In this document: positions 10,253 to 26,633 of the stretch, piece after piece
How the letters are laid out: each line of letters opens with the position of its first letter
Position numbering within the stretch: the stretch's first letter is position 1
DNA from: an uncultured Caryophanales bacterium
Lineage (GTDB): Bacteria; Bacillota_I; Bacilli_A; Izemoplasmatales; Hujiaoplasmataceae
Direction: 5' to 3'
Length of the DNA stretch: 26,633 bases
NCBI GenBank assembly: GCA_937958685.1
Contig: CALGNF010000084.1
Coordinates: 1 to 26,633, forward strand
The notes under the pieces: generated by a model
Databases searched by the model: none
What the model was told of the DNA's origin: nothing
What the model saw: the letters and a program-made list of their open reading frames with translations, nothing else
Position numbers and translations under genes: made by a program

Positions 10253-13200
10253 TTATTCGTTGTCGAACTTGCCGTAGATCGCCCAGTAGTAGGCATCGCG
10301 GGTGTCGACGAGCATCTGGACCATCTCCGCCTGGGTCTGGACATGATAGTCGGTCGCCTTGAAGTTGCCGATTGCCAAACGGTCGGCCTGGTTCATGTTG
10401 ATGGTGCCCAAAACGTACAAGTTTGCCACGAGATCGCTGGCATACCGGCCGATCGCGGTTCTGAGGTTGGCGGGGATCTTGGGGATCGTGAAACCGTATT
10501 TCGCTTCCACCCCGGCCTCGGTCAAATCATAGAACTGGTCGTAGAAGTAATACTCGGCATAGAGCTGCAGTTGCGCCAGCGTCGGTTTGCCGGAGGCATT
10601 CACGGCAGCGGGATCATATACCGGGTTTTCCGGATCGCTTTCGGCAAACGCCGCGCTCGGCTGGGTGAAGTAATCGCCTTTGGTTCCCAAGATGAGATGA
10701 TTGCCGAAGGAAGTGGCCACAAGACCCGACATCATCTGGGTGTTGCTGAGGTTCTGCGGCAGATTGTACTCGTCATAGAGCGCCTTGAGTGCAGCGACGA
10801 ACTCCGGCACCAATTCGCCGGCAACGCCGTATTCGCCGAAGTACTCGAGCGAATGCTTCTTGTCTTCGTCATCGGTCTCATTGAGTTCCTGAACGAGGAT
10901 GAAGATGCCTTTCTGCTTGAATTCTCCCCACGTCTCGTTGTCTCTGGTGGCGTTGGCGTAAGCCGAGGCCAGAGTCGTGAGTGTCTTGGTCTCGTCGGTG
11001 AGATAATCCATGATCGCACTCTCGAGCGAAGCCAGAAGCGCCGTGAAGTCATCAGCTTCGGCGGGAGTTAGACCCGCGAGGTAATCGTTGTAGTCATCGG
11101 GACGGTCGTTCTCGTCGAAATCGAAGAAGATCAGCAAATGGGTGACATAGAGGCTGAAATAATTGTCGTAATACTCCTCGAGCTTCGGATAGATGAGATC
11201 GATGAGCTCATATTGGTCGATCGTTTCCTTGACGATGTAAGCCTGCAAGGAGGAAACCACGGCGTCCTCCAAGAGATCGGTTTCCGACTTCGCGCCCTTG
11301 AACTGGAGATAGATGTACTCGTTGAAGGACGCATAGGGGAATTCCATGCCATAAGCCGCGTAGAGCGACTGGAGATACGGATAATAGTCCTTGACCGACT
11401 CCACGTAGCTGAGGAGACTGACCATCCGTTCGGATTTGTTTCGGAGGAGATTCTTTTCAGTGCCGAAGACATTTTCGAAGTAAGAGGTCGCGAGGAGTTC
11501 CTTGAACTGGGAAGCATACATCACGTACAAGGCGGGATTTTTCGTCATCGCGTAGGAGAACAGCTCATCAGCGGTGATCTCGATCGCCTCGTCTTCCGCT
11601 CCGGGACGGCCGGATAGCGTGGCGAACAGGCGTTTGTGGCCTTTCGTCTTGTGGTCGTAACTGGCATAGGTGTTGTGGTATTCCAAACCGATCAGATAGT
11701 CATAGATCTGGAAATCATATTTTTCGCGGAGTTTTGTGAGGTAGGTATTGATGGTCGTGGTCGCGGTCGATGCCGTCATTTTTTCCTCGACCAGTTTCAA
11801 GAGCAGTTCCTGATACAAATCATCGTCGTCGAGAATCGTCTTGAAGGGTATCTCCGTGTCCGCGCTCGGTTCCGCCGGCACGGTCGCGCCATCGGCCAGC
11901 ACCGTGACCGTGATCTTGCCGGAACGGACGCGGCTGTTGAAGGTGATCCGGTAGGTCATTTCGACCTGGGTGTCAACGGAAGGTTTCGTCACGACGCCGG
12001 CACCGGTGATGACGCTGGTGTTGGCCGAGGACCAGACGATGGTGGAACCGTACCAACTCGCTGTCATCGGGGTGATCTTGTCGCCAATGGTGAGAGGGAT
12101 CCGGATCTGGGACTCGATGTGGTCAAGCATCAGTTCTTCGTATGCGGCTTTGTCGTCGTCCTGGGTAAGCTTGAAAACCATGAAGTGATACGTGGAGTTG
12201 GACATTAAGAAACTTCTGGCGGTGGTAGTGTATCTTATGAGTAACTCGTTGTCCAGATCCAGCGTCTTGAACATGTAGGTCGCCAAGCCGGTCTGCACCT
12301 TGTTCACGTCCGCAAAGGCAAAGCTGAGATCATCATTGTCATGCTCGGTGAGTTCAGCGATCGATAAGCCTTCCGGAAGCAAAGCCCGGTAATCGCCGTA
12401 GACATAGTTGTACATCTGGACATATTTTTGCAGCACGGCCTCGTCGGAGAGTTCCGCCGTATTGTGGAGTGTGGCTTTGGAAACGGCCGTGATCGGGGCA
12501 TATACCTTGTTCACGTACAAACCCGAACTGGCGGTGACGTCGTTTTGTTCGGTGTCGTAGATTTTGCCATCCTTGTCGATCGTATAGACGATGGTTTCGG
12601 AAGCGTCCTTGACGACGGCATCCTCTTCTTGATCGAAGGGATCGGCTTTGGATACGGTATAATAGAATGTGTTGGCTTCCTTGTAGGCTTCGGCGGCCAC
12701 GATGTCGTCATGGATCAGTGCCGCCTCGACGACGACTTCCTCATCGGTGTCGATCAGGTTGCCGTCTTCGTCAAGCGTGTATTCGTTGTCGTCCTCATCG
12801 ACGTAGATCTCGCCCTCGCCAAGGGTGTAGACGATTTCCTCCGCGAGATTGAGGATATTCATCTCTTCGTCGAAGTAGAAAGGCTCGACAGTCTTGTAAG
12901 CTTCGACAAGGTTCTCTTCATCATCGAATAGCAGCTCCCGGTTGTAGTAATAGCCAAGGTATTCCCGGAGCGACTCGGCGTTGTAGTCCATGATGTTGAA
13001 TTTCTGCATGACCGCCCTGGCATCGGCAGCGCTGGTGAACCTGATCCGGACGGCTTTGATGTCGCCAAAGGTTTTGTTCAGAAATTCCCTAGCGATCATG
13101 AGATCCGTGATCGAGCCGTCGGTTGCCATGGTTTCCCGGACATACATGTCGCGGACCAGCACCAAAGCGGCATATTCGGCTTCGTTGCCGTCATAGCCGG

Positions 13201-13609
13201 AAAGCACCATATTGAGTTTGAAGTCATTGTCATACTGCGTCCGCTGCTCATCGCTGAATTCGGCAATGGCATCCGGATCGGCGGTTCCATATTTCAGTTT
13301 CAGGATTTTCTCGGCGACCATCTCGTCCGTGACCTGATCAAAATAGTCGGTCAGAAGGGCCGTGTCGACCATGAAAAGGAGCTGTTGCAGGCCGTCGTTG
13401 ACCTTCATCTCCTCGTATAGTTCCTTGTTGGTGATCGAATACTTGACTTTGCCCTGTTCATCGAGCCGTTCATAAAAGATGCCGTCAGGGTCACTCAAAG
13501 ACGGGTAGCGAGTGTTGCCCGTCGTGAAGGCGACGATGACAGCGGAAGCGACGACAGTGATCAGGATGCCGAAGACGATGATGACTTTTTTTGTCAGTAG
13601 ATTATTCAT
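10253..13609 (-). CDS. Giant membrane-anchored PrsA/parvulin-like foldase
   Basis: The 1118-residue protein has an N-terminal signal anchor (about 8-30, no lipobox Cys). Residues 55-170 resemble the SurA/PrsA N-terminal chaperone domain (ITNKELYEEM, VTDEMVAEKILKLKYG). KAVRIRFTSAADARAVMQKF and YHFMVFKLTQDDDKAAYEEL look like the first and last strands of a diverged parvulin module. Residues ~505-577 look like an atypical bacterial Ig domain (VWSSANTSVITGAGVV). A second SurA-like segment (EITADELFSYAM) then leads to a clearer parvulin-like module at ~820-977 (THLLIFFDF, FGEYGVAGELVPEFVAALKAL, ATSFGNHLIL). PrsA itself is ~300 residues. AAGGAG precedes the ATG. Family assignment rests on pattern recognition; isomerase activity is unproven. 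Confidence 0.65.
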   Translation of the reverse strand: MNNLLTKKVIIVFGILITVVASAVIVAFTTGNTRYPSLSDPDGIFYERLDEQGKVKYSITNKELYEEMKVNDGLQQLLFMVDTALLTDYFDQVTDEMVAEKILKLKYGTADPDAIAEFSDEQRTQYDNDFKLNMVLSGYDGNEAEYAALVLVRDMYVRETMATDGSITDLMIAREFLNKTFGDIKAVRIRFTSAADARAVMQKFNIMDYNAESLREYLGYYYNRELLFDDEENLVEAYKTVEPFYFDEEMNILNLAEEIVYTLGEGEIYVDEDDNEYTLDEDGNLIDTDEEVVVEAALIHDDIVAAEAYKEANTFYYTVSKADPFDQEEDAVVKDASETIVYTIDKDGKIYDTEQNDVTASSGLYVNKVYAPITAVSKATLHNTAELSDEAVLQKYVQMYNYVYGDYRALLPEGLSIAELTEHDNDDLSFAFADVNKVQTGLATYMFKTLDLDNELLIRYTTTARSFLMSNSTYHFMVFKLTQDDDKAAYEELMLDHIESQIRIPLTIGDKITPMTASWYGSTIVWSSANTSVITGAGVVTKPSVDTQVEMTYRITFNSRVRSGKITVTVLADGATVPAEPSADTEIPFKTILDDDDLYQELLLKLVEEKMTASTATTTINTYLTKLREKYDFQIYDYLIGLEYHNTYASYDHKTKGHKRLFATLSGRPGAEDEAIEITADELFSYAMTKNPALYVMYASQFKELLATSYFENVFGTEKNLLRNKSERMVSLLSYVESVKDYYPYLQSLYAAYGMEFPYASFNEYIYLQFKGAKSETDLLEDAVVSSLQAYIVKETIDQYELIDLIYPKLEEYYDNYFSLYVTHLLIFFDFDENDRPDDYNDYLAGLTPAEADDFTALLASLESAIMDYLTDETKTLTTLASAYANATRDNETWGEFKQKGIFILVQELNETDDEDKKHSLEYFGEYGVAGELVPEFVAALKALYDEYNLPQNLSNTQMMSGLVATSFGNHLILGTKGDYFTQPSAAFAESDPENPVYDPAAVNASGKPTLAQLQLYAEYYFYDQFYDLTEAGVEAKYGFTIPKIPANLRTAIGRYASDLVANLYVLGTINMNQADRLAIGNFKATDYHVQTQAEMVQMLVDTRDAYYWAIYGKFDNE

Positions 13610-13795: not shown

Positions 13796-13824
13796 TTGAC
13801 AAAAGCAAACCTAGATAATATAAT
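13796..13824 (+). promoter_or_regulatory. Consensus sigma-A promoter of the c-di-GMP riboswitch operon
   Basis: TTGACA (13796-13801) and TATAAT (13819-13824) are both perfect and lie exactly 17 bases apart. Transcription should begin near 13830-13831, at the very 5' edge of the aptamer. Such a strong promoter suggests that control is exerted mainly after initiation, by the riboswitch. Confidence 0.85.
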
Positions 13825-13825
13825 A

Positions 13826-13903
13826 GGCCCGTAAATAGCAAAACTAACGAAAGTTAGTGACGCAAAGCTATAGGGCCTTCGATAAGATGGTAGCCAGTTG
13901 CCG
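13826..13903 (+). ncRNA. Cyclic di-GMP-I riboswitch (GEMM-I)
   Basis: The conserved core is clear. TAGCAAAAC leads into a helix ACTAAC/GTTAGT (13843-13848/13853-13858) capped by a GAAA tetraloop. Then comes the hallmark GTGACGCAAAGCTATAGGG (from 13857), with ATAGC (13835-13839) pairing GCTAT (13867-13871), and the tetraloop-receptor arm ending in GGTAGCCAGTTGCCG (13889-13903). GEMM-I aptamers bind c-di-GMP and control motility, adhesion and c-di-GMP enzymes. A terminator follows directly and shares bases with the aptamer's 3' strand, which suggests transcriptional control. All four genes to 25312 lie downstream, including two GGDEF/EAL proteins. Confidence 0.93.
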
Positions 13904-13930
13904 TTGTCTTTGAGACGAGGGCGTTTTTTT
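13900..13930 (+). terminator. Riboswitch expression-platform terminator
   Basis: GCC (13900-13902) and TTGTCT (13904-13909) pair with AGACGA (13913-13918) and GGC (13920-13922) around a TTG loop with one G-G mismatch, followed by seven T. The basal GCC is also the 3' strand of the aptamer's closing helix (TTGCCG), so the two structures compete. Ligand binding should therefore disfavour termination, giving an ON switch (inference). Confidence 0.75.
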
Positions 13931-13973
13931 ATTTCCCGGGCGGGTAAATGGAAAACGACTCTTGCAGGACGAT

Positions 13974-13993
13974 GGCTTTTTTATTCAAAAGCC
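13974..13993 (+). other. Short perfect hairpin in the operon leader
   Basis: GGCTTTT and AAAAGCC pair perfectly around TTATTC, between the riboswitch terminator and the first gene. There is no T-run after it, so it is not a terminator. It may be an mRNA stability or processing element (speculative). Confidence 0.4.
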
Positions 13994-14015
13994 TGAATCT
14001 GACTCGTGATCTGCC

Positions 14016-14732
14016 ATGAAAGAAGTGGTGAGGATGCAAGCCAAGGAATTGCGAAGAAAAATGCTGCTCTCGCTGGCGTTGCTGGTCTTTTCCCTATGCC
14101 TGTTCGTCTTCTCCAGCTACGCTTGGTTCACCGGCAAGTTCTCCGAATGGCTGAATGCCGAAGTCGGTTTCGTCGATGTGGACATGCTCGTCTATTTCGA
14201 GGATGATGTCCTCGGATTGGTGCCGGCGGATGATGTTCCCGACGCCAAGGTGGAGATCACCACCGGCGTCTACAAGCCCGGCATCTACGAGATCAACATC
14301 ATCAGCAACCAAAGCGCCAACTACTTCGAGGATTTTCGCCTGAAACTGGAAATCAAGAGCAATGTCGACACTTACTTCCGCATCAAGATCTACGAGCAGC
14401 TGACGCTGACCTATCTCAATTATGATAATTCGATCACCGAACTGTCCGTCCTCATCGACGGCTTTATGCCTTTCAATTATGAACTTGACAACTGGCACGA
14501 CAACCGGGAAATCGACAACTATCTCTATTATAAGAATCCCGTCAGGCGCGTCGGTGTCGACGATCCTCTGGAGATTTGGCTGATCAGCGAATACTTCGAG
14601 GGTCAGAACTTTGCCAATTATTCCTTGGGTTACTCCCTGCAGATCGCCTTTTCGGTGGAAGCCATCCAGGCGCATCAGGGACCGGACAAAGTCTGGGGCC
14701 TCACCGAGACGCCCTGGGGAACTACGTGGTAG
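14016..14732 (+). CDS. TasA/camelysin-like secreted protein with YAWFT-type signal
   Basis: The 238-residue protein has a basic N-terminus and a hydrophobic segment (MLLSLALLVFSLCLFVFSS) ending in SYAWFTGKFSEWLNAEVG. The YAWFT motif at the end of the signal is typical of SipW-dependent TasA-like fibre proteins and camelysin relatives of Bacillota. The mature part is acidic and beta-rich (YKPGIYEINIISNQS, RIKIYEQLTLTYLNYD), consistent with a TasA-like sandwich, but clear homology is limited to the signal. It ends in DKVWGLTETPWGTTW, similar to the end of the next protein. ATG 14016 lacks a good ribosome site; ATG 14034, preceded by GAAGTGG, is a plausible alternative. It is the first gene behind the riboswitch. 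Confidence 0.6.
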   Translation: MKEVVRMQAKELRRKMLLSLALLVFSLCLFVFSSYAWFTGKFSEWLNAEVGFVDVDMLVYFEDDVLGLVPADDVPDAKVEITTGVYKPGIYEINIISNQSANYFEDFRLKLEIKSNVDTYFRIKIYEQLTLTYLNYDNSITELSVLIDGFMPFNYELDNWHDNREIDNYLYYKNPVRRVGVDDPLEIWLISEYFEGQNFANYSLGYSLQIAFSVEAIQAHQGPDKVWGLTETPWGTTW

Positions 14733-14743
14733 GAGGTGCGAAC

Positions 14744-17700
14744 ATGAACAGATACCTGTTGCGAAAACTGATGCAGATGCGCCTGTTGGTCCTTTTCGTT
14801 ATGGGCCTGATGACGCTGTCGCTGCTCTCGCTGTTTGTGGAAAAATCCAGCGCCATCCCGCCAGTGGACAACCATTTCGGCGACCTCATCGTCTTTGACG
14901 GCACCTATCCCTGGGAACAGCCCATGAGCGATCCCGGAAGTTCCGCTGATTATATCACTTATTCTGATCTGCGCGACACCCACTGCAAATACACAACGAC
15001 GCTTTCGGCTTGCGAGATTGCCGTTTGGGGCGTCGACGGTGAGGGTGGTGAAGACGACAAGATCATCAGATTCGATACCGCTGAGGAATTATACCGTTTC
15101 TCCGTGGATGTCTCGTATGAAGAGGTCTATCAGTCTTCCGACCCAAACGAGAATTATAAACTATCGGAGACAAAAGTCGAATTCCTGCTCGGACTCCATT
15201 ATGTTCTTGGCAACAACATCGACTATTCCGTTCTCGGTGCCAAGCGTTTCATCCCGATCGGCTATTTCTTCTATGATTCCCAGGAGGTTCTCTACGAGAA
15301 TGTCTTCACCGGCACGTTCGACGGCCAGGGCTTTGCCATCAGCAATCTCTATCTGGCCGACTACGAGCATCTCGTTCATGAAGAAGAAGTCAACGGCACC
15401 ATCGTCGATATCGCCTTGAGTCCTTATTACACGATGTTCACCATCAACGAAGGCACCATTAGGAATCTCGGACTGATCAATCCGACCTTGGAACTTTTGA
15501 CTCTGCATCTTAGCATCACCAAAGTCGCCAACCTGGTCGGTTTGAACAAAGGCATCGTCGACCATGTCTTCGTGATCGACAATCGCGCTTCCGTGCTCGA
15601 CGCCGGCATTCGCTACAACGTCGGCACTTCCAGCGCGACGTTCCAGGCCGCCGGCATGATCCATACCAACGAAGGCTATTTCACGGACTCCTATTATGTT
15701 TCCAAAGTCGTCGTGAACGGCTCCTACATCAACAAATTCATCAGCCAGCCGGTTCTCTACACCAACACCGGCACGATCGCCAACCTCGTCTATGATTCGT
15801 CGGTCTATCTCCTGCAGGTCCAGGTCGGAGCGCAAACCTTCAATGTCGCGACGCCGAACGCAAATGCTACTGGAGAGACGACAACGATTCTCAAATCGAC
15901 GGATTCCGCGCTCAATCAGGAAACCAACCACTGGTATTTCTATCCCAGCGACACCTATCCGCTCGCTCAGGGCTTGGAATATGACGAAGAGAATGAAGTC
16001 TATTATATCACCGACGCCATCGACCTCGCCTTTTTCTCGAGGCTGATCGCGTTCACAAGCGTCGCCAACGGCAACCTCTATGCCTATTCCGATTATCTTT
16101 TGACAAACAACATCGATATGGGCATTTTGGCCACGGGAGCGTATCGCACGCCGAACGTGACTTTCTACGGCTCCTTCTCCGGCGCCAACCCCGAGGGGGA
16201 GGATTTGAGCGACAACTTCTATATCCACAATCTCCAGATAACCACAGGCACGATCAGAGGCACAATCTATTATGCCGGTCTCTTCAGTTTGCTCGGGGCG
16301 AATAGCCACGTAAGCAACCTCAATATCTATGATTCCGCGATCGCGCTTAACGATACCGAAGGGTACTACAGCCGGACATTCTATATCGGCATGCTTGCCG
16401 GCAGGATCACCGCCGGCACGATCACCGACGTTCTGCTGGATGCCGATATCAATCTCGGGACCCAGGCGATCGGCGAGACCCACGCGGGCAGCCTTGTCGG
16501 CATGGCGTCCGGGACCATCGCCAGGGTGGCTTCCTATGGCGACATCGATGCCGGCAACCACACCTTCCAATCCGGATACAGTGTCAGACCCTTGTACTAC
16601 ATCGGCGGTGTGGTTGGCAGCGCCACCGGTCTCAAACTGAGCGCCACCGATCTTGTCAACCATGGCACGATCACCGGCTTCGGCACGCTGTCGACCTTCA
16701 ACCTGGCTACGGGCATGAACACGATCGACATCAAGATCGGCGGTGTCATCGGCTACATCCTTAATGTAACCGACGCGATCCATGCTTTCACCAACATTGC
16801 CAACAAGGGCGACATCTATTTAAGAAGCGTTATCTTTAGCGCTTCCAGTCCCACTTTGCCCTCACGGCAACGCGTTGGCGGCGTGTTTGGAGAAGTGGGC
16901 GGGTTGGCTCCGGTTCTAGAAGAAGACGGCCAACATAGATTTGCCAATTTCTATAACGAGGGTACTGTTCATGCCGCATATGCCTCAGGAACATCTTTCA
17001 TCCGTTCCGCCGGCATCGGTGTTAGTAATACCACGGCCGCGGTTGAATACGCCTTGATGTTCAACCATGGCAACTTCGATTACAATACTACGGGAGCATC
17101 AGCTGCAAACCAATTGTTCCACTACACGGCAACCATATCCGATGTGGGAAGCGTTGGCATAACGCTCACGCGGGTCTACAATTATGGCAGCTTCACTTAT
17201 GACAACGCCTATTATGCCAATGTTTCGCCATTTTTCCATTCTGTCAACGACAACAACACCTTGATCAGATACAGCGCCAACTACGGTGACATAACCTTCA
17301 TTAACAACAATGGTGCGACGACGATCACGATGACGACACAGATGTCTGTGGCTGGGATCACGACCAGTGCAAATGTCAGTTTCCTGAATGTCATCAATGA
17401 TGGCGATATCACGATTGTCAACGTCAGTGTCGCGACATATACGATGTATGTCGCCGGTTTGGCAACGAACCTGTCCAGTGGGAAGTATATCAAGAATTCC
17501 ATCAATCAAGGCAAGATAACCGTTGCCTATATTAATTCGGGAACCAGTGGTTATCCAAACATCTATATCGGTGGCCTTGTCAATGGCAATTACTCCGGAG
17601 ACCTCCATGAGTCATGGCAGTCGGAAACTCAACCTAAGGCCGCAATTGGCATCATAAATTCACTTAATTATGGTGAAATAACCACAACATATTCCTCAAC

Positions 17701-20700
17701 CTATCTGGGAATACGCAATCGCAGCAACACCTTTGTCGGGGGCATCGCGACGATGAATGCCGGCTCGATCCAAGACAGCGCCAACCTTGGAGACTTGCGG
17801 GTCTATAACTCGTCAACTTCGGGCACCACCACACTGTCAACGGGATCATATACCGCCAACCGCGTTCAGACATACACACACGGTGTGACAGTCGGTGGCA
17901 TCGTCGGCATCACTTTGACGGGCAACGCAAGGGTCTATGACACAGCCAATAACGGCGACATCATCGCTTTGGCTTACCGTTACGTCAGATCCGGGGGCGT
18001 GATTGCCGTCAGCCTCTATGCCGAAGCCTTGGCCGGAGGCATCACTTCAGGTACCCATGGCCTCGAAACCACAGTCAGTGATTCAATCTTGCTTAACGGA
18101 ATGAACTTCGGCAATATCGCCGCGGTTTCCTTCGTAATAGGAGCCTATAGCACATCATCCTACACCACTTCGATCACCACGCTTCGTTATGGAACAGGCG
18201 ACCCATTGGGGGGAACCACCGGCATTGCAGTATATCCGAATACGACTATCGGCTCCAATGATCGCCCTGGCGTCTACGCCGCTGCCGGTGGTGTTGTCGG
18301 CTATGGTCTCTCAGTTATGAAGAATATGCTCAATCATGGAACGATTTCCGGTACCGACGTTGCCGGCGGCATCGTGGGAGCCACATATGTCGAAGGTGCT
18401 GAAGCCACCTTGACGACAGTCGTCGACATTAATACGGCCATCAACTATGGTAACATCAAAGCGATTTCCACATCATCTTACGTTTCAATTGACAAGGAAG
18501 CATTATCATACGCCAATGTATCGTCGTATTTCTTGGCCGATGGAAACACTACGATTTTTCCCGCAAGTTATGGCGTCGACTTCCCGAGCACCAAACGCGG
18601 TTTCGGCGGGATCTTCGGCCGTCTCCAACGAGGTGTCCGTGGCGTCATGTCGACCGACGGTGGCAGCTTCGACTTCATCGTCAACGCCAATCCCAATATC
18701 GATCTCGTCGGTCGCCTTGACCAGGACTATGCTTTCACCAATTCCGCTCGTTATTTCCAGTTTTATGATGCGATCTACTATTCAGCGCGGTTGAACGATA
18801 CAACCCAAGCTGTTTTTACAGGCTTCCAGTATTATTATCTGTTGATCACCGCCCGAACTGGAACCAGGGCTCCTTACTCTTATACCGCGACGATTGTTGA
18901 TGTCTATGAACAGATCGGATGCGTGGCAACGCTGACCGGCAGTCCCAACACACCGGGATACACATTCACATCATCGCAAGCGATCACGGTTGGCAGTTAT
19001 ACGCTCAGATACAGCAACGGTCTTGGTGTAGATTGGATCACCGAAAATCCCAGCGACCCAAATATTACCGACATGGACACCCAATACATGTATGATGCGG
19101 ATTTCCCGATGCGAACCGAAGTCGCTCTTCAAGAATATATTTATTATATGGAAAACGACCTGTTGGCATCACGATTCACAAGCGCCCGTCCCTATGGGAT
19201 GTATGTCCTGTCGACTACAGCCGGTTCAACTTTCGGTGCGGTTTTGCCAGCCAATATCAATCTCGACAAGATGCGCCCCATTGATGAGGATTATGAGGGG
19301 GAGATTTCGCTCTTCATAGATTATGACAACGTTTCTCCAATATATACTGCGGCATTGGCGTCAGGTGTCGTCAGCGCCTATAATTCCCTGCGGCAAACGA
19401 TTTTCAACGACAAGGCTGAACTGATACCGAGCGACTCGGTTTCGCTGACGCTGACCGAGGACGGTGGCAGTGAAACAATCTTGACCGGCGGGGCTGTTGA
19501 TTATGTTAACAAGATTGTCAGTTACACGATTTCCATGGAAGCGTTCCAAGCAAGCCAGACGACCGCCGCTTACGCGGTCACGAGCGCGCTCACATCCGCT
19601 TTTGCACTGGTTGCCGTAAGAGTCGACGACTATTACGGCTACCCGCCATCACAGGCTGAATTGGAGGCGTTCCGCGCGTTGTTGCTGGCCGCCGGTGAAG
19701 TGGCGATATCCACTGCATATCCGGCCCAACTTGAAGTCACTCTGCCGGATAAAACGATCACGACAGCTGTTACTCTGTCATTGGGCTTTATCTCAGTTTA
19801 CTCCGAGGCGTTTGTCGGTGACGACTTGTTCGCTCATCCGCAATACTACAATGATTATGAAGTCGAAATAACGTTCACGCCGGGAATCGAATATGCCGGC
19901 GGCACGACCGCCCTCACCGGCGCCGCTTTCGACGGCGGCAGCCTTGAGGACGTTTCCGCTTCTTCGACGGATGTCAGGTCGTTCGGCGATGTCGGATCCT
20001 CCGGCAGCCTCAGGCTCGTCTTCACCGATACGAATAACGTGTTCACTTTGGGATATGATTTCAAGAGTTATTTCACACTCAAATTTAACGACGGGACCAT
20101 CGTGCCTGCGGAATACTACACGGTGACGAGCGTACCGACTGTCATCGATTCGGGAACCGGCACCTATGAAATCACCTTCACATTTTTGGGAACCACGCGG
20201 ATGGGAGATTATTACTTCGAGTATCGCTACTTCCCGACATCCACACTGAAAACCGTCTATTTCGACAAAGCCGCTTCTTCCGCCAAAGCGATTTTGAATT
20301 TCAGTCACTATTCGATTCTGTCATCGAAAACCATCGATGGTTTGTCGCTCTCATCTTACGTCAATCTCGGATTCGTCCTCGACATCGACAGCAACACGGA
20401 CAATTTCACCGAAAACATCAATGGTTCGCTGCCGTCCTATCAGTCCAACAAGACCTATGACATCAGTTTCATGACAGCGGGAACCTTTGCGATCAGTCCG
20501 TTTGCGGAAGTCACGAGTTCAAGGCTGGTGAGTGTCGCCTACGCTAATGGATACAAGGACTACACGATCGAATACATCATCAGGGCCGAGGACAACACTA
20601 CCAACACTTATACCCATCATGTCTATGAACGGACCATCGACTTTGTATCTGTCCTTCGCAATGGCAACGAAACCGATCCTTCGGAAGTGTATGCCGCCCG

Positions 20701-22030
20701 TGAGGATAATTTGACAACCTTCACCGTTGATTTGGGTTTAGATCAGAATCTTGATCTTTACAATCTCGCCGCCGGCAACGACTCCTATTTCACGGTCGAG
20801 GTCACGGCGACGAGCCTGGACACGCTCGTGGTCTACGATCCCGAAGACATCATCGGTTTGACCTACTCTGTCAATGACTACCTGATGATCTACATGGATT
20901 TCGACACGATCCCGGGAATCTACACCTTCCAATTCTATTTCTACAGGGATGGCACCTCGAACTACGTCACCCTGGCCACGACGCTCGTCATCACCAAGGT
21001 CGAAGGTATCAGCGCCTACCTGACGGACATCCGCTTCTCCCAACTGGCCTTCGAGACTTCCTATCCGGACATGTTCACGACGAATGCCGCCGGCGTGGTC
21101 AACACCGATTATTATCCGGCCGTTTATTTCGCCGGCATCGACTATGACGGCGCCGACACCGCGGGATACCAATATTTCAAGGTCGCGGGCAAAGTTTCCA
21201 AGGTGCCCCTTGAACAATACGTGCCGTTTATGTTAGATTATTTACCGTACGGAGCCACGATCGCCCGTTATGCCTACAACAATGGCTGGTACTGGACCGA
21301 CGAGGTCGGATACGGAGCCTCCTCTGAGGAACAAAGCGTGCTTCTCGCCAACTTCACCGTCTTTCCCGACACTGGCCTCGAACCAGGCGAGAACGAGGAA
21401 GTGATGATTCTCTACCGGGTCACTTCCGAAGATGAAAACCACTTTGTCTACTACTTCATCACCGTCACCGACGTCGAATTCAACGCCACCTTCATCTTCG
21501 ACATCTATTATTGCACCGGAGCGGGAGAGGAAACCTGCACCCTGGCTTCCGAAAGCGTTGATTTCACCGAACAGATGGTCATCATCACCGTCAAGAACTA
21601 TGCGATGCTGCTCGAGGGCGAACCCGCTGACGATACGATCGTCAACGTCAACAATCCCGTTGACTATCCATTGTTCGACGAGATCGACCACCTGATCAGC
21701 ATCACGACACAATTCTTCTATACTTACTCCGCACCCTACAAATACAGTTTCGCCCGCAACCGCAGCGGTTTCTTCATCTTTGATGTCGTGTTACCCGTGG
21801 ATGCCTATTTCCACCAACTCTATACCTATGACATCGAATTTGGCGAATACACCCTCAACGAGGCCGATGATTACATCGACGGACTGCAGGGAAGGTACTT
21901 CTACATCGGTCCCTCGACCAGGAACCGTTCGCGGCGTTTCAATGTCTATATCAGGGAACTTGAGGAAGTGTCGACCGACAGACCGTGGGGCCTGTTCGAC
22001 TTCTTCCGTTCCTGGGGCAACAATGACTAA
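14744..22030 (+). CDS. Giant secreted beta-helix-type surface protein
   Basis: The 2428-residue protein begins with a signal peptide (basic MNRYLLRKLMQMR, hydrophobic core, SSA cleavage site near residue 37). AGGAGGTG five bases upstream fixes the ATG. Residues ~185-1310 contain GLUG-like and right-handed-helix-like repeats: GTFDGQGFAISNLYL, IRNLGLINP, THAGSLVGMASG, YIGGVVGSATG, VAGGIVGATY, and many N-x-G-[DEKNT]-I turns. Residues ~1310-2428 look like successive beta-sandwich segments with many Tyr/Asp/Thr. There is no LPXTG, C-terminal membrane helix or dockerin; the end is DRPWGLFDFFRSWGNND. I infer an adhesin or matrix protein exported by the Sec route. No specific ligand or enzyme motif is recognised. 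Confidence 0.7.
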   Translation: MNRYLLRKLMQMRLLVLFVMGLMTLSLLSLFVEKSSAIPPVDNHFGDLIVFDGTYPWEQPMSDPGSSADYITYSDLRDTHCKYTTTLSACEIAVWGVDGEGGEDDKIIRFDTAEELYRFSVDVSYEEVYQSSDPNENYKLSETKVEFLLGLHYVLGNNIDYSVLGAKRFIPIGYFFYDSQEVLYENVFTGTFDGQGFAISNLYLADYEHLVHEEEVNGTIVDIALSPYYTMFTINEGTIRNLGLINPTLELLTLHLSITKVANLVGLNKGIVDHVFVIDNRASVLDAGIRYNVGTSSATFQAAGMIHTNEGYFTDSYYVSKVVVNGSYINKFISQPVLYTNTGTIANLVYDSSVYLLQVQVGAQTFNVATPNANATGETTTILKSTDSALNQETNHWYFYPSDTYPLAQGLEYDEENEVYYITDAIDLAFFSRLIAFTSVANGNLYAYSDYLLTNNIDMGILATGAYRTPNVTFYGSFSGANPEGEDLSDNFYIHNLQITTGTIRGTIYYAGLFSLLGANSHVSNLNIYDSAIALNDTEGYYSRTFYIGMLAGRITAGTITDVLLDADINLGTQAIGETHAGSLVGMASGTIARVASYGDIDAGNHTFQSGYSVRPLYYIGGVVGSATGLKLSATDLVNHGTITGFGTLSTFNLATGMNTIDIKIGGVIGYILNVTDAIHAFTNIANKGDIYLRSVIFSASSPTLPSRQRVGGVFGEVGGLAPVLEEDGQHRFANFYNEGTVHAAYASGTSFIRSAGIGVSNTTAAVEYALMFNHGNFDYNTTGASAANQLFHYTATISDVGSVGITLTRVYNYGSFTYDNAYYANVSPFFHSVNDNNTLIRYSANYGDITFINNNGATTITMTTQMSVAGITTSANVSFLNVINDGDITIVNVSVATYTMYVAGLATNLSSGKYIKNSINQGKITVAYINSGTSGYPNIYIGGLVNGNYSGDLHESWQSETQPKAAIGIINSLNYGEITTTYSSTYLGIRNRSNTFVGGIATMNAGSIQDSANLGDLRVYNSSTSGTTTLSTGSYTANRVQTYTHGVTVGGIVGITLTGNARVYDTANNGDIIALAYRYVRSGGVIAVSLYAEALAGGITSGTHGLETTVSDSILLNGMNFGNIAAVSFVIGAYSTSSYTTSITTLRYGTGDPLGGTTGIAVYPNTTIGSNDRPGVYAAAGGVVGYGLSVMKNMLNHGTISGTDVAGGIVGATYVEGAEATLTTVVDINTAINYGNIKAISTSSYVSIDKEALSYANVSSYFLADGNTTIFPASYGVDFPSTKRGFGGIFGRLQRGVRGVMSTDGGSFDFIVNANPNIDLVGRLDQDYAFTNSARYFQFYDAIYYSARLNDTTQAVFTGFQYYYLLITARTGTRAPYSYTATIVDVYEQIGCVATLTGSPNTPGYTFTSSQAITVGSYTLRYSNGLGVDWITENPSDPNITDMDTQYMYDADFPMRTEVALQEYIYYMENDLLASRFTSARPYGMYVLSTTAGSTFGAVLPANINLDKMRPIDEDYEGEISLFIDYDNVSPIYTAALASGVVSAYNSLRQTIFNDKAELIPSDSVSLTLTEDGGSETILTGGAVDYVNKIVSYTISMEAFQASQTTAAYAVTSALTSAFALVAVRVDDYYGYPPSQAELEAFRALLLAAGEVAISTAYPAQLEVTLPDKTITTAVTLSLGFISVYSEAFVGDDLFAHPQYYNDYEVEITFTPGIEYAGGTTALTGAAFDGGSLEDVSASSTDVRSFGDVGSSGSLRLVFTDTNNVFTLGYDFKSYFTLKFNDGTIVPAEYYTVTSVPTVIDSGTGTYEITFTFLGTTRMGDYYFEYRYFPTSTLKTVYFDKAASSAKAILNFSHYSILSSKTIDGLSLSSYVNLGFVLDIDSNTDNFTENINGSLPSYQSNKTYDISFMTAGTFAISPFAEVTSSRLVSVAYANGYKDYTIEYIIRAEDNTTNTYTHHVYERTIDFVSVLRNGNETDPSEVYAAREDNLTTFTVDLGLDQNLDLYNLAAGNDSYFTVEVTATSLDTLVVYDPEDIIGLTYSVNDYLMIYMDFDTIPGIYTFQFYFYRDGTSNYVTLATTLVITKVEGISAYLTDIRFSQLAFETSYPDMFTTNAAGVVNTDYYPAVYFAGIDYDGADTAGYQYFKVAGKVSKVPLEQYVPFMLDYLPYGATIARYAYNNGWYWTDEVGYGASSEEQSVLLANFTVFPDTGLEPGENEEVMILYRVTSEDENHFVYYFITVTDVEFNATFIFDIYYCTGAGEETCTLASESVDFTEQMVIITVKNYAMLLEGEPADDTIVNVNNPVDYPLFDEIDHLISITTQFFYTYSAPYKYSFARNRSGFFIFDVVLPVDAYFHQLYTYDIEFGEYTLNEADDYIDGLQGRYFYIGPSTRNRSRRFNVYIRELEEVSTDRPWGLFDFFRSWGNND
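16538..18458 (+). repeat. Coding repeats with N-x-G-[DEKNT]-[IFLV] turns
   Basis: About fifteen diverged copies lie in the giant protein, for example SYGDI (16538), VNHGTI, ANKGDI, YNEGTV, FNHGNF, YNYGSF, ANYGDI, INDGDI, INQGKI, LNYGEI, ANLGDL, ANNGDI, MNFGNI, LNHGTI and INYGNI (near 18441). They recur every 35-75 residues, many preceded by a GG-[IV]-[VI]-G turn. This is the usual look of stacked beta-helix coils. The copies differ at the DNA level and are not recent tandem duplications. Confidence 0.75.
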
Positions 22031-22047
22031 AGAGGCGGTGTCACCGA

Positions 22048-23781
22048 TTGCGTAAGAAACGAGTCAGGAACATCCACAACACCATCTCGCGCCGAATCGT
22101 CAGCCTGACGGTCTTTCTCGATGCGCTTTTCCTCGTCATCACCATGGCTGTTTTAGCCTTCCTGTACATCGAGAAACTCGAAGCAGATCCCGGTGTCGGT
22201 CTCGAAGCGCTGTTTCTGATCCTGGTCGGCGTCATCCTTATGCTCATGCTGCTCGTATCCCTGATCCTCTCCCGCAAGATCTGCGCCATCCTCTCGCCGA
22301 TCAACGATGTCGTCGATGCGATCGGCGAGATCCAGCGGGGCAACTACAATCTCAACATTCCCGTCAAGGATAACAATGAGTTCAAGATCGTGGCGGACGC
22401 GCTCAACATCATGTCCAGGGAGATCAGCAAACAGGTCGAACTCGTCTACCAGAGCTTCGCCTACGATTCGCTGACCGGGCTCAAGATCCTCAAGGCCAGC
22501 CATCAGGATGTCGATGACATCCTCCTGAAGGAAAAAGACAAGATGGCGGTTTGTCTGCTGGAAATCGGCAACCTTAAAAGCATCGCCGTGACCAAGGGCC
22601 AACCGGTCGTCGAGGAGTTGGTGCAGAAGATCGCCAGTCGCCTTGGCGTCTTCGTCAACAACCAGGAGTTCATCTTCAGCAATTCCGGCAATGAACTCGT
22701 TTTCTTGCTTTCCGGCGTCCGTTCGCTCGAAAAAGTCGAGACCGACGTCAACAAGCTGCTCGACATGTTCAAAGAACCGCTGGACATCAAGAATTACAAA
22801 GTCGAGGTCCATCTCAACATCGGCATCGCCATCTATCCCTCGGACGGCAAGGAGATCGCCGGGCTGATCAAGAAATGCGACACCGCGCTCTTCAAGGCGC
22901 GCCAGGCCGGGGCCGGCAAGTTTGTCTTCTACAACGAACAGCTGGTCCGCGAGGTCAACTACAAACAACAGATCTACGAGCAGTTGGCGCAAGCCATCAA
23001 AAACCAGCAGCTGTATCTCAAATACCAGCCGCTGATCGACAACAAGAACGAGATTTACGGCTTTGAGGCGCTGGTCCGCTGGAAATCCCCGACTTTGGGT
23101 GAAATCAGCCCGCAGATCTTCGTCGCCAACGCCGAAGAATCGCACCTGATCATCCCGATCGGCAACTGGATCCTGCGCGAGGCCTGCAAGGCCCAGATGG
23201 AACTCAAGCGGCGTTTTGACAGAAAATTCGTCATCAGCGTCAATGTCAGCCCCGTGCAGCTGATGCAAAAGGATTTCATCGAAAGTCTCCGCCAGGTCGT
23301 GCGGGAGACGGAAATCGATCCCAACTACCTGGTTCTGGAAGTCACCGAGGGTGTGCTCATCGAATCCTCGATCTATCTGGAGGAGATCATCGAGTACCTC
23401 CACCAGATCGGCGCCAAGATCGCCCTCGATGACTTCGGCACCGGCTACGCCTCCCTGACCTATCTCAAGCAGATTCCCTTCGACAATCTCAAGATCGACA
23501 AGACGTTCGTCGACGGCATCTTCGGACCGAAGAAGGATCACGCGATCATCGCGACGATCGTCCAACTCGTCCACAGCCTCGACATCAAGGTCATCGCCGA
23601 AGGCGTCGAGAAACGCAAGCAATACGAATATCTCAAACAGATCGCCACGGACGTGTTCCAAGGCTTTCTGTTCTCCAAGCCGTTGACATTTGACGAGACA
23701 GCGCACTATGTCGACCAGTTCTACAAAGTCGCCAAGGGCAAACGCATCGACGTCTTTGCCGGCAAAGACTTCTATGATTGA
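22048..23781 (+). CDS. Membrane HAMP-GGDEF(degenerate)-EAL c-di-GMP phosphodiesterase
   Basis: The 577-residue protein has two membrane helices (about 17-40 and 54-74), a HAMP linker (75-130), a GGDEF domain with SGNEL at 213-217 in place of GGDEF, and an EAL domain. The EAL site looks complete: Glu340 (FEALVRW), Asn399 (VNVSP), Glu431/Glu434 (LEVTE), Asp461-Asp462 in loop 6 (DDFGTGYASL), Lys482 (LKIDK), Glu518/Glu521 (AEGVE) and Gln538 (FQGFLFSKP). It should hydrolyse c-di-GMP to pGpG but not make it. Start is TTG 22048 behind AGAGGCGGTG; no better start is in frame. It follows the giant gene by 17 bases and should be controlled by the upstream c-di-GMP riboswitch. Confidence 0.9.
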   Translation: MRKKRVRNIHNTISRRIVSLTVFLDALFLVITMAVLAFLYIEKLEADPGVGLEALFLILVGVILMLMLLVSLILSRKICAILSPINDVVDAIGEIQRGNYNLNIPVKDNNEFKIVADALNIMSREISKQVELVYQSFAYDSLTGLKILKASHQDVDDILLKEKDKMAVCLLEIGNLKSIAVTKGQPVVEELVQKIASRLGVFVNNQEFIFSNSGNELVFLLSGVRSLEKVETDVNKLLDMFKEPLDIKNYKVEVHLNIGIAIYPSDGKEIAGLIKKCDTALFKARQAGAGKFVFYNEQLVREVNYKQQIYEQLAQAIKNQQLYLKYQPLIDNKNEIYGFEALVRWKSPTLGEISPQIFVANAEESHLIIPIGNWILREACKAQMELKRRFDRKFVISVNVSPVQLMQKDFIESLRQVVRETEIDPNYLVLEVTEGVLIESSIYLEEIIEYLHQIGAKIALDDFGTGYASLTYLKQIPFDNLKIDKTFVDGIFGPKKDHAIIATIVQLVHSLDIKVIAEGVEKRKQYEYLKQIATDVFQGFLFSKPLTFDETAHYVDQFYKVAKGKRIDVFAGKDFYD

Positions 23782-23791
23782 GGTGGTAATT

Positions 23792-25312
23792 TTGAATAGC
23801 CAATGGTTTTGGTCTCTGGCAGCACAGCCGATCCGGGAAGGCTACGAGGTTGTCGTCGCGACGATCATGGTCATCGTCACGGCCGCGGCGCTCTTTTTCC
23901 TGTTTCGCAACGTGACCGCGGAGATCAGGAAAGGCATCGAGGACCGCAAACTGATCCGCAAAAGCGACGAGCCGGCAGAAGACGGCACGGGAAAGACGCA
24001 CTTGCTCGTCGAAAAGCGCACCGGCAGCAAGAAGTCTGGCGATATGCTCGGCCAGATCAACCAATTGATCTATCAGGCCAAGGAAGGTTCCCTCGGCGTC
24101 CTCTTCTACATGAATTTGGACAATTTCCGGTTCATCAGCGAGAAATACGCGCAGAAAGACACCGACAAAGTCATTCTTGAGATTGACAAGCGGCTCAAGA
24201 AATATGCCCGCAGCGGCGTCGTGGTCGGCCATCTCAAAAACGACATCTTTCTCTATTATCTGACGGGCGAGATCGACAACAAAGTCATCCACGACCAGGC
24301 GTCTTCCCTCCTGCAACTCGTCAATGAGCCGCTCAAGAGCGTCAACGAGCAACTGACGACCTCGATCGGCGTCGTGCTCTTCCCCTATGACGGCATCACA
24401 TCGATGCAACTCGTGAAGAATGCGGAGATCGCCCTGTATGTTTCCAAGAAGGAGGGCAAGAACCGCTATTACCTTTACTCTCAAGATCTGATCGAAAAAG
24501 AACAATTCAACATGAGTTACTACCAGGAAATCAAGCGCTCGATCTCCAACGACGAATTCCTGCTCTACTACCAGCCGATCATCGACCTCAAGACCGGCAA
24601 GATCATCGGCCTCGAGTCATTGCTCAGGTGGAACCATCCGGTGATGGGGATCCTGCCGCCGGGGAAATTTCTCAATGTCATGGACTTGACCGGCGACATC
24701 ACCTGGTTCGGCACCTGGGGATTCGAGAAGATCGTCAAGCAGTATGTCGAGTGGAAGAAGGATTACCGCGTCCGCGACCTCTTCATCTCGATGAACATCT
24801 CGCCCAAGCAGATGGAAGTCGGTAATCTGGCCAAGTCATTCTTCGACATCGTCAAGAAATACGATTTCAACGCCGAGAGCTTCTGTCTGGAGATCAACCA
24901 GTACTACACGATCGTGAAGAACCAGGTGGCGATGAACAATCTCGCCGAATTCCGCAAATACGGTTTCCGCATCGCCATCGACGACGTCGGCGACCAATTC
25001 GAGATCATCAAGGAGATGGACCAGATCCGCGCCGGCATCATCAAGATCAGCCGCGAGCACACGCTCAAACTGATGAACGGTTTCGAGGAGACCGACAAGA
25101 TCGTCCGCGTGATCCAGACGGCGATGCAAAGACAGAAGATCGTCATCGTCGAAAGCATCGAGAACGAGGCGATGATCCGCAAAGTCGCCAAACTCGACGT
25201 CAGGTTCATGCAAGGTTACTATTTCAGCGTCCCCCGCGCCGCCGCCGAGATCAGCGAACTGTTCGTCAGGCCGCAATGGGACATGGAGTCCTTCGTTCGT
25301 TTCTATGAATGA
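23792..25312 (+). CDS. Membrane GGDEF-EAL protein with both domains degenerate
   Basis: The 506-residue protein has one N-terminal membrane helix (about 17-38), a short basic linker, a GGDEF-like domain with LKNDIF (148-153) where LGGDEF is expected, and an EAL-like domain. Substrate-contact residues are partly kept (Glu275, Asn335, Glu367, Asp397-Asp398, Lys418, Glu454, Gln474). However, EAL is ESL, the second Glu of LEVTE is Gln370 and loop 6 reads DDVGDQFEII instead of DDFGTGYSSL. Catalysis is unlikely; a c-di-GMP-binding or scaffolding role is inferred. I prefer TTG 23792 with GAGGTGG five bases upstream, mirroring the preceding gene; ATG 23774 is an overlapping alternative. Confidence 0.85.
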   Translation: MNSQWFWSLAAQPIREGYEVVVATIMVIVTAAALFFLFRNVTAEIRKGIEDRKLIRKSDEPAEDGTGKTHLLVEKRTGSKKSGDMLGQINQLIYQAKEGSLGVLFYMNLDNFRFISEKYAQKDTDKVILEIDKRLKKYARSGVVVGHLKNDIFLYYLTGEIDNKVIHDQASSLLQLVNEPLKSVNEQLTTSIGVVLFPYDGITSMQLVKNAEIALYVSKKEGKNRYYLYSQDLIEKEQFNMSYYQEIKRSISNDEFLLYYQPIIDLKTGKIIGLESLLRWNHPVMGILPPGKFLNVMDLTGDITWFGTWGFEKIVKQYVEWKKDYRVRDLFISMNISPKQMEVGNLAKSFFDIVKKYDFNAESFCLEINQYYTIVKNQVAMNNLAEFRKYGFRIAIDDVGDQFEIIKEMDQIRAGIIKISREHTLKLMNGFEETDKIVRVIQTAMQRQKIVIVESIENEAMIRKVAKLDVRFMQGYYFSVPRAAAEISELFVRPQWDMESFVRFYE

Positions 25313-25349
25313 AAACGGCTGGCACTTGATAGTTGCCAACCGTTTTTTT
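25312..25349. terminator. Bidirectional terminator at the end of the c-di-GMP operon
   Basis: AAAACGG-C-TGGCA (25312-25324) pairs with TGCCA-A-CCGTTTT (25334-25346) with one mismatch, followed by a T-run. It also serves the convergent tetR gene. Confidence 0.88.
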
Positions 25350-25956
25350 AATGTTTGTAGATGCCCGCATCGAGGATCTTCATCGTCTCGTCGACGACCT
25401 TGTCGATGTCGGCCTCGCTCACTTCCTCGCGGAAGAGGATCTGGAGCCCGACGAAATTGGCGATGCCCATCAGGACGTAGGCGAGCGTCTCGAGATCGAG
25501 ATCATCACGCAACTCCTCCTTGTCCACATATTCCCGCAAGTGGAACATGTACGCTTCCGCAAAACTCTGATAATACTCCTGGAAAATCTTGGAATCGATG
25601 AACAACGACTCCCAGATGACCCGATACGCCAGCGGATCCTTGCGCACGTAGGTGATGAAGGCCTTCAACCCCTCGCGCTCGATCTCCCGGCGCGTAGCCA
25701 GACCCCTGATGGCGTCTGCCGACGCCTTGCGGATCCCCAGCCGGTACTCATGGAGAAGATACAGATACAGGGATAGCTTGTTGTCGAAATAGATGTAATA
25801 CGTGCCGGCGGCCACTTTCGCCTTGGCGATGATGTCGTTGATTGAAGTCGCCTGGTAGCCGTTTTTCGCGAACAGCCGCCTGCCGGTCCTGATGATGCGC
25901 AAGACGGTCTTTTCGCCGATCTTGGTCTTTGGCGGATGGAATCCTGGTTGCAGCAT
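25348..25956 (-). CDS. TetR/AcrR family transcriptional regulator
   Basis: The 202-residue protein has a classical TetR N-terminal DNA-binding domain: RIIRTGRRLFAKNGYQATSINDIIAKAKVAAGTYYIYFDNK (about residues 19-60), with the helix-turn-helix ending in GTYYIYFDNK. The C-terminal ligand domain (65-202) includes REIEREGLKAFITYVRKD and resembles acyl-CoA-responsive members, though the ligand cannot be told. AGGTGA lies five bases before ATG 25956; GTG 25965 lies in frame but overlaps that site. The gene is divergent from a thiolase gene, and palindromes lie between them, so it probably controls that gene and itself (inference). Confidence 0.92.
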   Translation of the reverse strand: MLQPGFHPPKTKIGEKTVLRIIRTGRRLFAKNGYQATSINDIIAKAKVAAGTYYIYFDNKLSLYLYLLHEYRLGIRKASADAIRGLATRREIEREGLKAFITYVRKDPLAYRVIWESLFIDSKIFQEYYQSFAEAYMFHLREYVDKEELRDDLDLETLAYVLMGIANFVGLQILFREEVSEADIDKVVDETMKILDAGIYKH

Positions 25957-26360: not shown

Positions 26361-26588
26361 ATGCAGAAAGTTTTTCTTGTCGGTGCCAAACGTAGTCCGA
26401 TCGGCTCATTCATGGGCAGTCTGAAAGATGTCCACCCCGCCGAACTGGGTTCTCAGGTTCTCAAGCAGTTGCTCAAAGAGACAAACTTGCCGCCAGCGGC
26501 GATCACCGAGGTGATCGTCGGCAACATCCTGCCTGCCGGTGTCGGCCAGGGCATCGCCCGCCAGATCTCCATCAAAGCCGGGATTCCC
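26361..26588 (+). CDS. Acetyl-CoA acetyltransferase (thiolase), N-terminal part
   Basis: The 76 visible residues read MQKVFLVGAKRSPIGSFMG, then VHPAELGSQVLKQLL, EVIVGNILPAGVGQGIARQI and KAGIP, the standard N-terminus of biosynthetic thiolases (AtoB/PhaA/ThlA type). The active-site Cys near residue 88 lies beyond the contig. Thiolases condense two acetyl-CoA to acetoacetyl-CoA, or cleave 3-ketoacyl-CoA, in butyrate, polyhydroxyalkanoate or fatty-acid pathways. AAAGGA precedes the ATG. The gene is cut by adapter sequence, not by a biological event. Confidence 0.93.
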
Positions 26589-26633
26589 AGATCGGAAGAG
26601 CACACGTCTGAACTCCAGTCACCGAATACGATC
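26589..26633 (+). other. Illumina read-2 adapter with index (artefact)
   Basis: From 26589 the sequence matches the TruSeq adapter beginning AGATCGGAAGAGC and ending CCAGTCAC at 26622. An eight-base index-like CGAATACG (26623-26630) and ATC follow. This is library sequence, and the thiolase frame must be cut at 26588. Confidence 0.98.

Follow-up and report, generated by a model that had tools for sequence, protein, structure and literature searches.

Analysis of a 26,633-nucleotide contig from an uncultured Caryophanales bacterium of the Izemoplasmatales (CALGNF010000084.1, assembly GCA_937958685.1; the whole stretch is called the window below) led to a probable riboswitch for cyclic di-GMP (c-di-GMP), of the GEMM-I class, at the head of a four-gene operon. 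Probably this is an ON switch whose one aptamer controls two terminators in series, and a phosphodiesterase encoded by the operon would provide feedback. A strong promoter would start an RNA that opens with the aptamer. Without ligand, the strand following the last aptamer pair (arm a) would pair with a nearby arm (a') and RNA polymerase would stop at a first terminator (T1). If the polymerase slips past T1, a hairpin (H) would form that hides the U-tract of T1 together with the last bases of a' and leaves arm a free to pair with a third arm (a''), which would bring about a stop at a second terminator (T2). Binding of c-di-GMP would instead keep the beginning of arm a in the ligand pocket, so that both terminators would fail and the 11-kb operon would be transcribed. 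The products would be two exported proteins (P0001 and P0002) and a membrane phosphodiesterase (P0003) that, with its partner P0004, would lower c-di-GMP again as a negative feedback.

Organization of the leader

The leader comprises the following elements:

13796..13824 (+): promoter TTGACA-17-TATAAT, matching 12/12 consensus positions
13827..13905 (+): c-di-GMP-I (GEMM-I) aptamer, RF01051, 64.4 bits, E-value 1.1e-10, full length of the model (1-87)
13900..13909 (+): arm a (GCCGTTGTCT), 5' arm common to both terminators, directly after the model's last aptamer pair and beginning GCC
13913..13931 (+): terminator T1, arm a' (AGACGAGGGC, 13913-13922) and U-tract, abutting the 3' end of the aptamer, with a G-G mismatch at pair 4
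13919..13961 (+): hairpin H, -14.7 kcal/mol, in which A-rich sequence downstream pairs with the last bases of a' and the U-tract of T1
13967..13985 (+): putative terminator T2, arm a'' (GGACGATGGC, 13967-13976) and U-tract, with 10/10 pairs to arm a in the window

The RF01051 match is the only Rfam match over its gathering score within the window (35 bits for this model); a tandem riboswitch has at least two aptamers, and a single one was detected here. For comparison, 60 GEMM neighbourhoods were typed by visual inspection of gene sizes and, in part, of sequences, and fall mainly into three types. Type A consists of the P0001-P0002 pair, type B of a 255-aa protein, proteins with a ...STYAWFTV... 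N-terminus, a SipW-type peptidase and a protein with weak similarity to AAA ATPases, and type C of a small exported protein and a signal-peptidase-like protein. Most leaders were labelled type B from the size and order of the next genes, sequences having been inspected for L006, L011 and L055. The promoter recurs as TTGAC[A/T]-17-TATAAT at equal distance from the aptamer (within one base) in all 14 type-A leaders examined (of 16). It would place the transcription start near 13831, so that the aptamer forms the 5' end of the RNA.

We aligned 24 of 29 type-A and type-B leaders (alignment A4), omitting L009 (no a''), L067 (looking near-identical to L008), L006 (no U-tracts) and L040 and L042 (long middles). 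Arm a is paired with a' in 215 of the 240 cells of this alignment and with a'' in 231, T2 therefore exceeding T1. The nine unpaired cells of T2 fall at pair 4 (three), pair 9 (one) and pair 10 (five), and pair 4 of T1 is a G-G mismatch in 19/24 leaders. When the partner was slid along the leader as a control, pairing reached only 28-63%. At pair 7 of both 3' arms, a G in arm a faces C or U and an A faces only U (Fisher p = 7.6e-6 for T1 and 0.006 for T2, values from which relatedness of the leaders is not removed). At pairs 5, 6 and 8, the 3' arm of T2 has either A or G, facing U. None of 500 shuffles reached the paired percentage of T1, and none its covariation score.

Hairpin H is mutually exclusive with T1 and compatible with T2. 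The two strands of its stem vary together: one pair is A-U in 17 leaders, G-C in six and G-U in one, and the next is U-A in 20, C-G in three and U-G in one. When the stretch from a to a'' is folded, the minimum-energy structure contains T2 in 24/24 leaders. With arm a free, the folding gain of a'' has a median of 8.65 kcal/mol; with arm a blocked the median is 0.0 and the maximum 1.9 kcal/mol, and this loss indicates that T2 relies on the strand engaged by the aptamer. By the same values, two independent terminator hairpins, as in the Bc1 riboswitch discussed below, were not found. A local 5' partner for a'' was also considered and rejected, as it contributes little in most leaders (largest local gain 5.3 kcal/mol, in L011).

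The second arm was detected in 15/16 type-A leaders (all except L009; L008 and L067 look near-identical) and in 13/13 leaders taken as type B, L006 included. It is also present in L052, type-C-like by size, and was not found in the four type-C leaders L043, L044, L068 and L087. A generic two-arm scan, which skipped loci L019-L028, L030-L039, L100-L129 and L130-L159, was negative for the tandem-aptamer leaders L077, L082, L084 and L090 of other Mollicutes (2-4 aptamers each). A held-out set of 40 regions from genomes new to the analysis included 22 leaders, 11 each of type A and type B, of which 20 have a'' and a U-tract; L188 of the held-out set looks nearly the same as A4 member L083 and is not independent. 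The generic scan recovers 19/22 of these leaders and 24/34 sites across the held-out set. Among held-out leaders with an unclassed first gene, a'' is present in L162, L168, L169, L183 and L185 and was not found in L160, L174 and L178. As controls, 43 sites of L040-L099 not classed as A or B gave 28 with T1, and two of the 43 passed the two-arm scan (L052 and L099), while six sites of L193-L199 gave one with T1 and none that passed.

An earlier reading of this DNA from its letters, made with no database searches (the sequence-only reading), had proposed a GEMM-I aptamer and a competing terminator, and had named an RF01051 search among its checks; both elements are borne out by the match and by T1. 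Its picture of one terminator holds for the competition with the aptamer and is incomplete beyond it, a'' and hairpin H having been missed. It had also raised an ON switch, a proposal to which the anatomy described next lends some weight and which gained no further support.

Polarity, termination and ligand

The contacts of the ligand in the Vc2 aptamer include G20, A47 and C92 (as cited in PMC11218506), and the terminator of the pilM ON switch takes up the cytosine that pairs with the ligand (PMC9262584). In the window, arm a overlaps the predicted ligand-contact cytosines. It directly follows the last aptamer pair and contains a conserved CC, which should include the equivalent of Vc2 C92, either C being eligible, and the ligand-holding strand and the terminator arm are mutually exclusive, as in the anatomy of an ON switch. 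Since arm a begins with GCC, the segment matching the ligand cytosine, binding of the ligand should be incompatible with either terminator, an anatomy that points to ON polarity.

Several observations weigh against two serial terminators under one aptamer. L009 and held-out L165 lack a'', held-out L170 lacks the U-tract, and L006 has both arms with no U-tracts. In a phylum sample (L200-L223, 18 sites), five sites have T1 and two of those five pass the scan (L215 and L221), which makes it a thin control. The shuffle control of T2 is modest: of 500 shuffles, 35 match its paired percentage, 11 its covariation score and 485 the number of its pairs altered in both strands, since there is little variation in arm a and a'' differs mostly by A/G facing U. 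A stem to a'' that spans about 55-95 bases may fold too slowly for termination. Finally, Bc1, the nearest studied GEMM-I switch with dual terminators, is described as giving no c-di-GMP response in vivo (PMC11218506), and the base at Vc2 position 20, treated below, could mean recognition of cyclic GMP-AMP (cGAMP) or mixed recognition.

The likeliest alternative is an ordinary ON riboswitch with a single terminator, a'' being a decayed copy or a post-transcriptional hairpin outside termination. T1 alone would suffice for such a switch, the long-range stem of T2 is kinetically handicapped, and L009 and L165 retain the operon without a''. Against this stands the persistence of a'' with its U-tract, and of hairpin H, over two operon types and many genomes. 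Moreover, a decayed copy should not stay paired, and T2 pairs better than T1. We therefore regard a single terminator as unlikely, and the gating of T1 and T2 by the same strand as the better account of the leader.

The identity of the ligand was considered next to this. A13837 aligns with Vc2 position 20 (mapped on the Rfam alignment), and this column is A in 24/24 leaders of A4; L006, L009 and L165, all outside the alignment, have G. In c-AMP-GMP (cyclic AMP-GMP) variants, the changed base at this contact is A. A change at this contact position is common among such variants (PMC9481103), so the natural ligand might be 3',3'-cGAMP or both dinucleotides. The sequence-only reading had left this caveat unstated, the A occupying the very position that tunes c-di-GMP against cGAMP. 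Enzymes of the Hypr group carry Ser where ordinary GGDEF domains have Asp. A capacity for cGAMP synthesis of this type was searched for in relatives' genomes, to which all genome-level counts in this work refer and not to the genome that supplied the window. It was rejected, as no Ser occurs in 32 aligned GGDEF rows (31 Asp and one Asn, from 30 of 51 GGDEF loci in three genomes); all 26 canonical GG[D/E]EF domains from these loci have Asp at the Hypr position. A SMODS cyclase was detected in 1/12 genomes, and the enzyme encoded in the operon itself is of the EAL type. In addition, the Bc2 riboswitch, with A11 as its predicted contact base, responds to c-di-GMP, although the competitors described for it in the excerpted text of PMC4933901 do not include cGAMP. 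Taken with the residue at the Hypr position, this makes c-di-GMP the likely ligand, and a role for cGAMP improbable.

Least probable, and in our view very unlikely, is a T2 that ignores the ligand, with the operon mostly off and c-di-GMP of little weight, as described for Bc1, where the ligand unfolds T1, T2 stays and no response is seen in vivo (PMC11218506): the T2 of Bc1 is an inverted repeat of its own, whereas the folding gain of a'' in our leaders falls to little or nothing once arm a is blocked.

The four genes and their products

The operon downstream of the leader contains four genes over about 11 kb, separated by gaps of 11, 17 and 10 bases:

14016..14732 (+): P0001, predicted exported beta-sandwich protein with an N-terminal hydrophobic helix and a Trp-rich C-terminus
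14744..22030 (+): P0002, 2,428 aa, predicted exported
22048..23781 (+): P0003, membrane protein with HAMP, non-canonical GGDEF (SGNEL) and EAL domains (Pfam), TTG start after AGAGGCGGTG
23792..25312 (+): P0004, membrane-anchored protein with degenerate GGDEF and EAL domains (Pfam), TTG start after GAGGTGG
25313..25349 (about; +): terminator-like inverted repeat and T-run closing the operon, read by eye from the sequence

The likelier start of P0001 is at 14034, after GTGGTGAGG, and the start of P0004 at 23690 in the list of open reading frames (ORFs) is too early. No Pfam or NCBIfam match was found for P0001 at an E-value of up to 0.1. Its AlphaFold2 model has a pLDDT (predicted local distance difference test score) of 91 and a pTM (predicted template modelling score) of 0.74, and a fold search with it gave no confident match, TasA being absent among the matches listed. 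TasA is not supported as an identity for P0001: no family model matched and a sequence search of the PDB gave one chance match (E-value = 0.061). A ...SYAWFT... style N-terminus and the SipW genes in relatives' genomes are the sole pointers in that direction.

P0002 had no match in Pfam, NCBIfam or PDB sequence searches, and its placement comes from the structure model, in which residues 420-1345 are predicted to form a right-handed beta-helix. A candidate identity as an IgA1 protease (M26) was rejected, since P0002 has no HExxH motif and no Pfam match. Some proteins of the P0002 family (P0119, P0125 and others) have an extra lamin-tail domain (PF00932). Both exported proteins have Trp-rich ends, ...VWGL..PPWG..W in P0001 (14700-14732) and PWGLFDFFRSWG in P0002 (21980-22030). 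A W is found within the last two residues in 94/109 P0001-family proteins, and WG near the end in 67/100 long P0002-family proteins. It is possible, judging by these residues, that the ends represent a shared sorting or assembly tag.

A residue audit of P0003 revealed an intact catalytic set and loop 6 of the EAL domain (EAL, N, ExTE, DDFGTGYAS, K, E and Q), and the protein is predicted to be an intact EAL phosphodiesterase. P0003 has no counterpart of the dCache-like sensor region of about 270 aa that is present in 9/11 full-length members of its family, and the copy of L008 is also without it. In the P0004 family, FGTGY of loop 6 is lost and ExTE is not kept in 12/12 members; an ESL motif occurs in 12/12 and most other site residues remain. 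P0004 is likely a non-catalytic partner. The GG[D/E]EF motif is missing from P0003 (SGNEL) and P0004 (KNDIF), and no canonical motif occurs in 13 and 12 members of their families, respectively. A LapD-type receptor was considered and rejected, as model NF045673 gave 109.1 and 59.1 bits against a cut-off of 1020. Upstream, a divergent gene (10253-13609, minus strand) stands head to head with the riboswitch promoter and encodes a protein of 1,118 aa that has an aBig_2 domain.

The sequence-only reading had described this unit as four closely spaced genes for a TasA-like protein, a giant beta-helix protein, an active-looking EAL protein and a degenerate GGDEF-EAL partner. The gene unit, the beta-helix and the condition of the two EAL proteins agree with our results, as far as residues and models can tell, and the resemblance of P0001 to TasA was not upheld. 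It had known of no described system with this gene set, a statement that is incomplete in that a synteny search reveals a conserved module of the lineage. The coordinates and gap lengths that it gave are right, and the negative feedback that it suggested is a reasonable proposal. Overall, its observation was confirmed and its interpretation partly supported.

Distribution of the module and of GEMM-led operons

Searches at an E-value of up to 0.001 gave 109 matches for P0001 and 112 for P0002 (each including the query itself). The named ones belong mostly to Candidatus Izemoplasmatales, Acholeplasmatales, other Mollicutes and unplaced Bacillota, a few of the labels being odd. Scanning genome contigs yielded 39 loci, in 32 of which a P0001-type gene directly precedes a P0002-type gene; the remaining seven are cut at or just before P0002. 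A P0003-type gene follows in 12 of the 39 and a P0004-type gene in 11, and the complete four-gene set with an aptamer is found in eight loci besides the window. Many distant loci have the P0001-P0002 pair and no P0003-P0004 in the DNA examined. Strain zrk2 has P0002-family genes at two loci, L006 and L018. The four-gene set is thus not a one-off but a module conserved among Izemoplasmatales and related Mollicutes. At L014:19042-20679, downstream of a P0002-family gene, a different EAL protein is encoded whose N-terminus is of membrane type. As this protein is a distinct one, the association with phosphodiesterases may have arisen more than once. In two metagenome-assembled genomes of Acholeplasmatales, the P0002-family gene carries a single in-frame TGA (L031:1988-1990 and L034:11911-11913), reflecting decay, error or a code in which UGA is sense.

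RF01051 is present in 35/38 of the genomes with these loci, 71/90 genomes of the order and 66/392 of the phylum sample. GEMM-led operons of type B are found right after the type-A genes (L011:22955-28682), just before them (L006:2968-7904) and also in L055. In the two type-B operons tested, TIGR02228 gave 79.5 and 69.1 bits (cut-off of 51.85), which identifies a SipW-type peptidase, and the same model scores above its cut-off in 12/12 relatives' genomes. Tandem aptamers (2-4) precede operons for exported proteins in other Mollicutes (L028:179-600, L036:5056-5244, L038:8089-8248 and L090:8010-8313). GGDEF matches occur in 12/12 genomes, 4 to 25 in each. Mur-ligase-family genes number one in 11/12 relatives' genomes and two in the other, all of 420-474 aa; read as FolC, they suggest that these bacteria are wall-less. 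In the open-licence literature we found nothing on c-di-GMP in Izemoplasma, on riboswitches in Izimaplasma or on c-di-GMP riboswitches in Acholeplasma.

The G+C content of the window is 52.8%, which is high for Mollicutes. Its last 45 bases (26589-26633) are what we take to be an Illumina TruSeq adapter and index, so that the end of the thiolase ORF at 26361-26633 is not genomic.

Comparison with known systems and significance

The closest parallel to our leader is Bc1, the c-di-GMP-I riboswitch of Bacillus thuringiensis, which likewise combines a GEMM-I aptamer, a long expression platform and two serial intrinsic terminators before the gene (PMC11218506). In Bc1, however, T2 is formed by a hairpin of its own, which remains folded in the presence of c-di-GMP and hides the response (PMC11218506), whereas T2 of the window has its 5' arm in common with T1 and the aptamer, and a hairpin that buries the U-tract lies between the 3' arms. 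Bc2, of the collagen adhesin of B. thuringiensis, is similar in being switched ON by antitermination, in its adhesin-type target and in the A at its predicted ligand contact; it differs in having one terminator and another surface protein, and a phosphodiesterase gene is not mentioned for it in the part of PMC4933901 consulted. The pilM cGAMP ON switch of Geobacter metallireducens presents the same exclusion between aptamer and terminator, the latter taking the cytosine that pairs with the ligand, but with one terminator and a different ligand (PMC9262584). Tandem (pseudo-cooperative) c-di-GMP-I riboswitches share the serial decision points on one message, although they repeat both aptamer and terminator (PMC9481103), while the window has one aptamer and two terminators. 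GEMM tandems of this kind precede related operons in other Mollicutes (L036, L038 and L090). As for the genes, the operon resembles tapA-sipW-tasA, the matrix operon of Bacillus, in a short exported protein with a ...YAWFT... style N-terminus and in a lineage with SipW-type peptidases, but no family match or confident fold match of P0001 to TasA was found, and the beta-helix giant and the EAL genes are foreign to the Bacillus operon. No riboswitch in which one aptamer strand serves as the 5' arm of two successive terminators was found in the open-licence literature; if right, the layout, in which a single aptamer strand controls two terminators in series and a hairpin resets it between them, is new relative to the literature searched.

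Such a layout may, as a tentative idea that we hold somewhat less probable than its opposite, serve kinetic proofreading. The same aptamer would be polled twice, about 55-95 nt apart, with hairpin H erasing T1 and resetting arm a, and only a ligand bound through both checkpoints would open the operon. If so, leakage would be multiplied down and slowly dissociating c-di-GMP would be favoured over near-cognate dinucleotides; in sister lineages, tandem aptamers may do the same work. If the switch itself operates as proposed, it would point to a regulon in which c-di-GMP controls exported surface proteins, in bacteria with wall-less-looking genomes, and would offer a single RNA in which to ask whether a second checkpoint sharpens the response or proofreads the residence time of the ligand.

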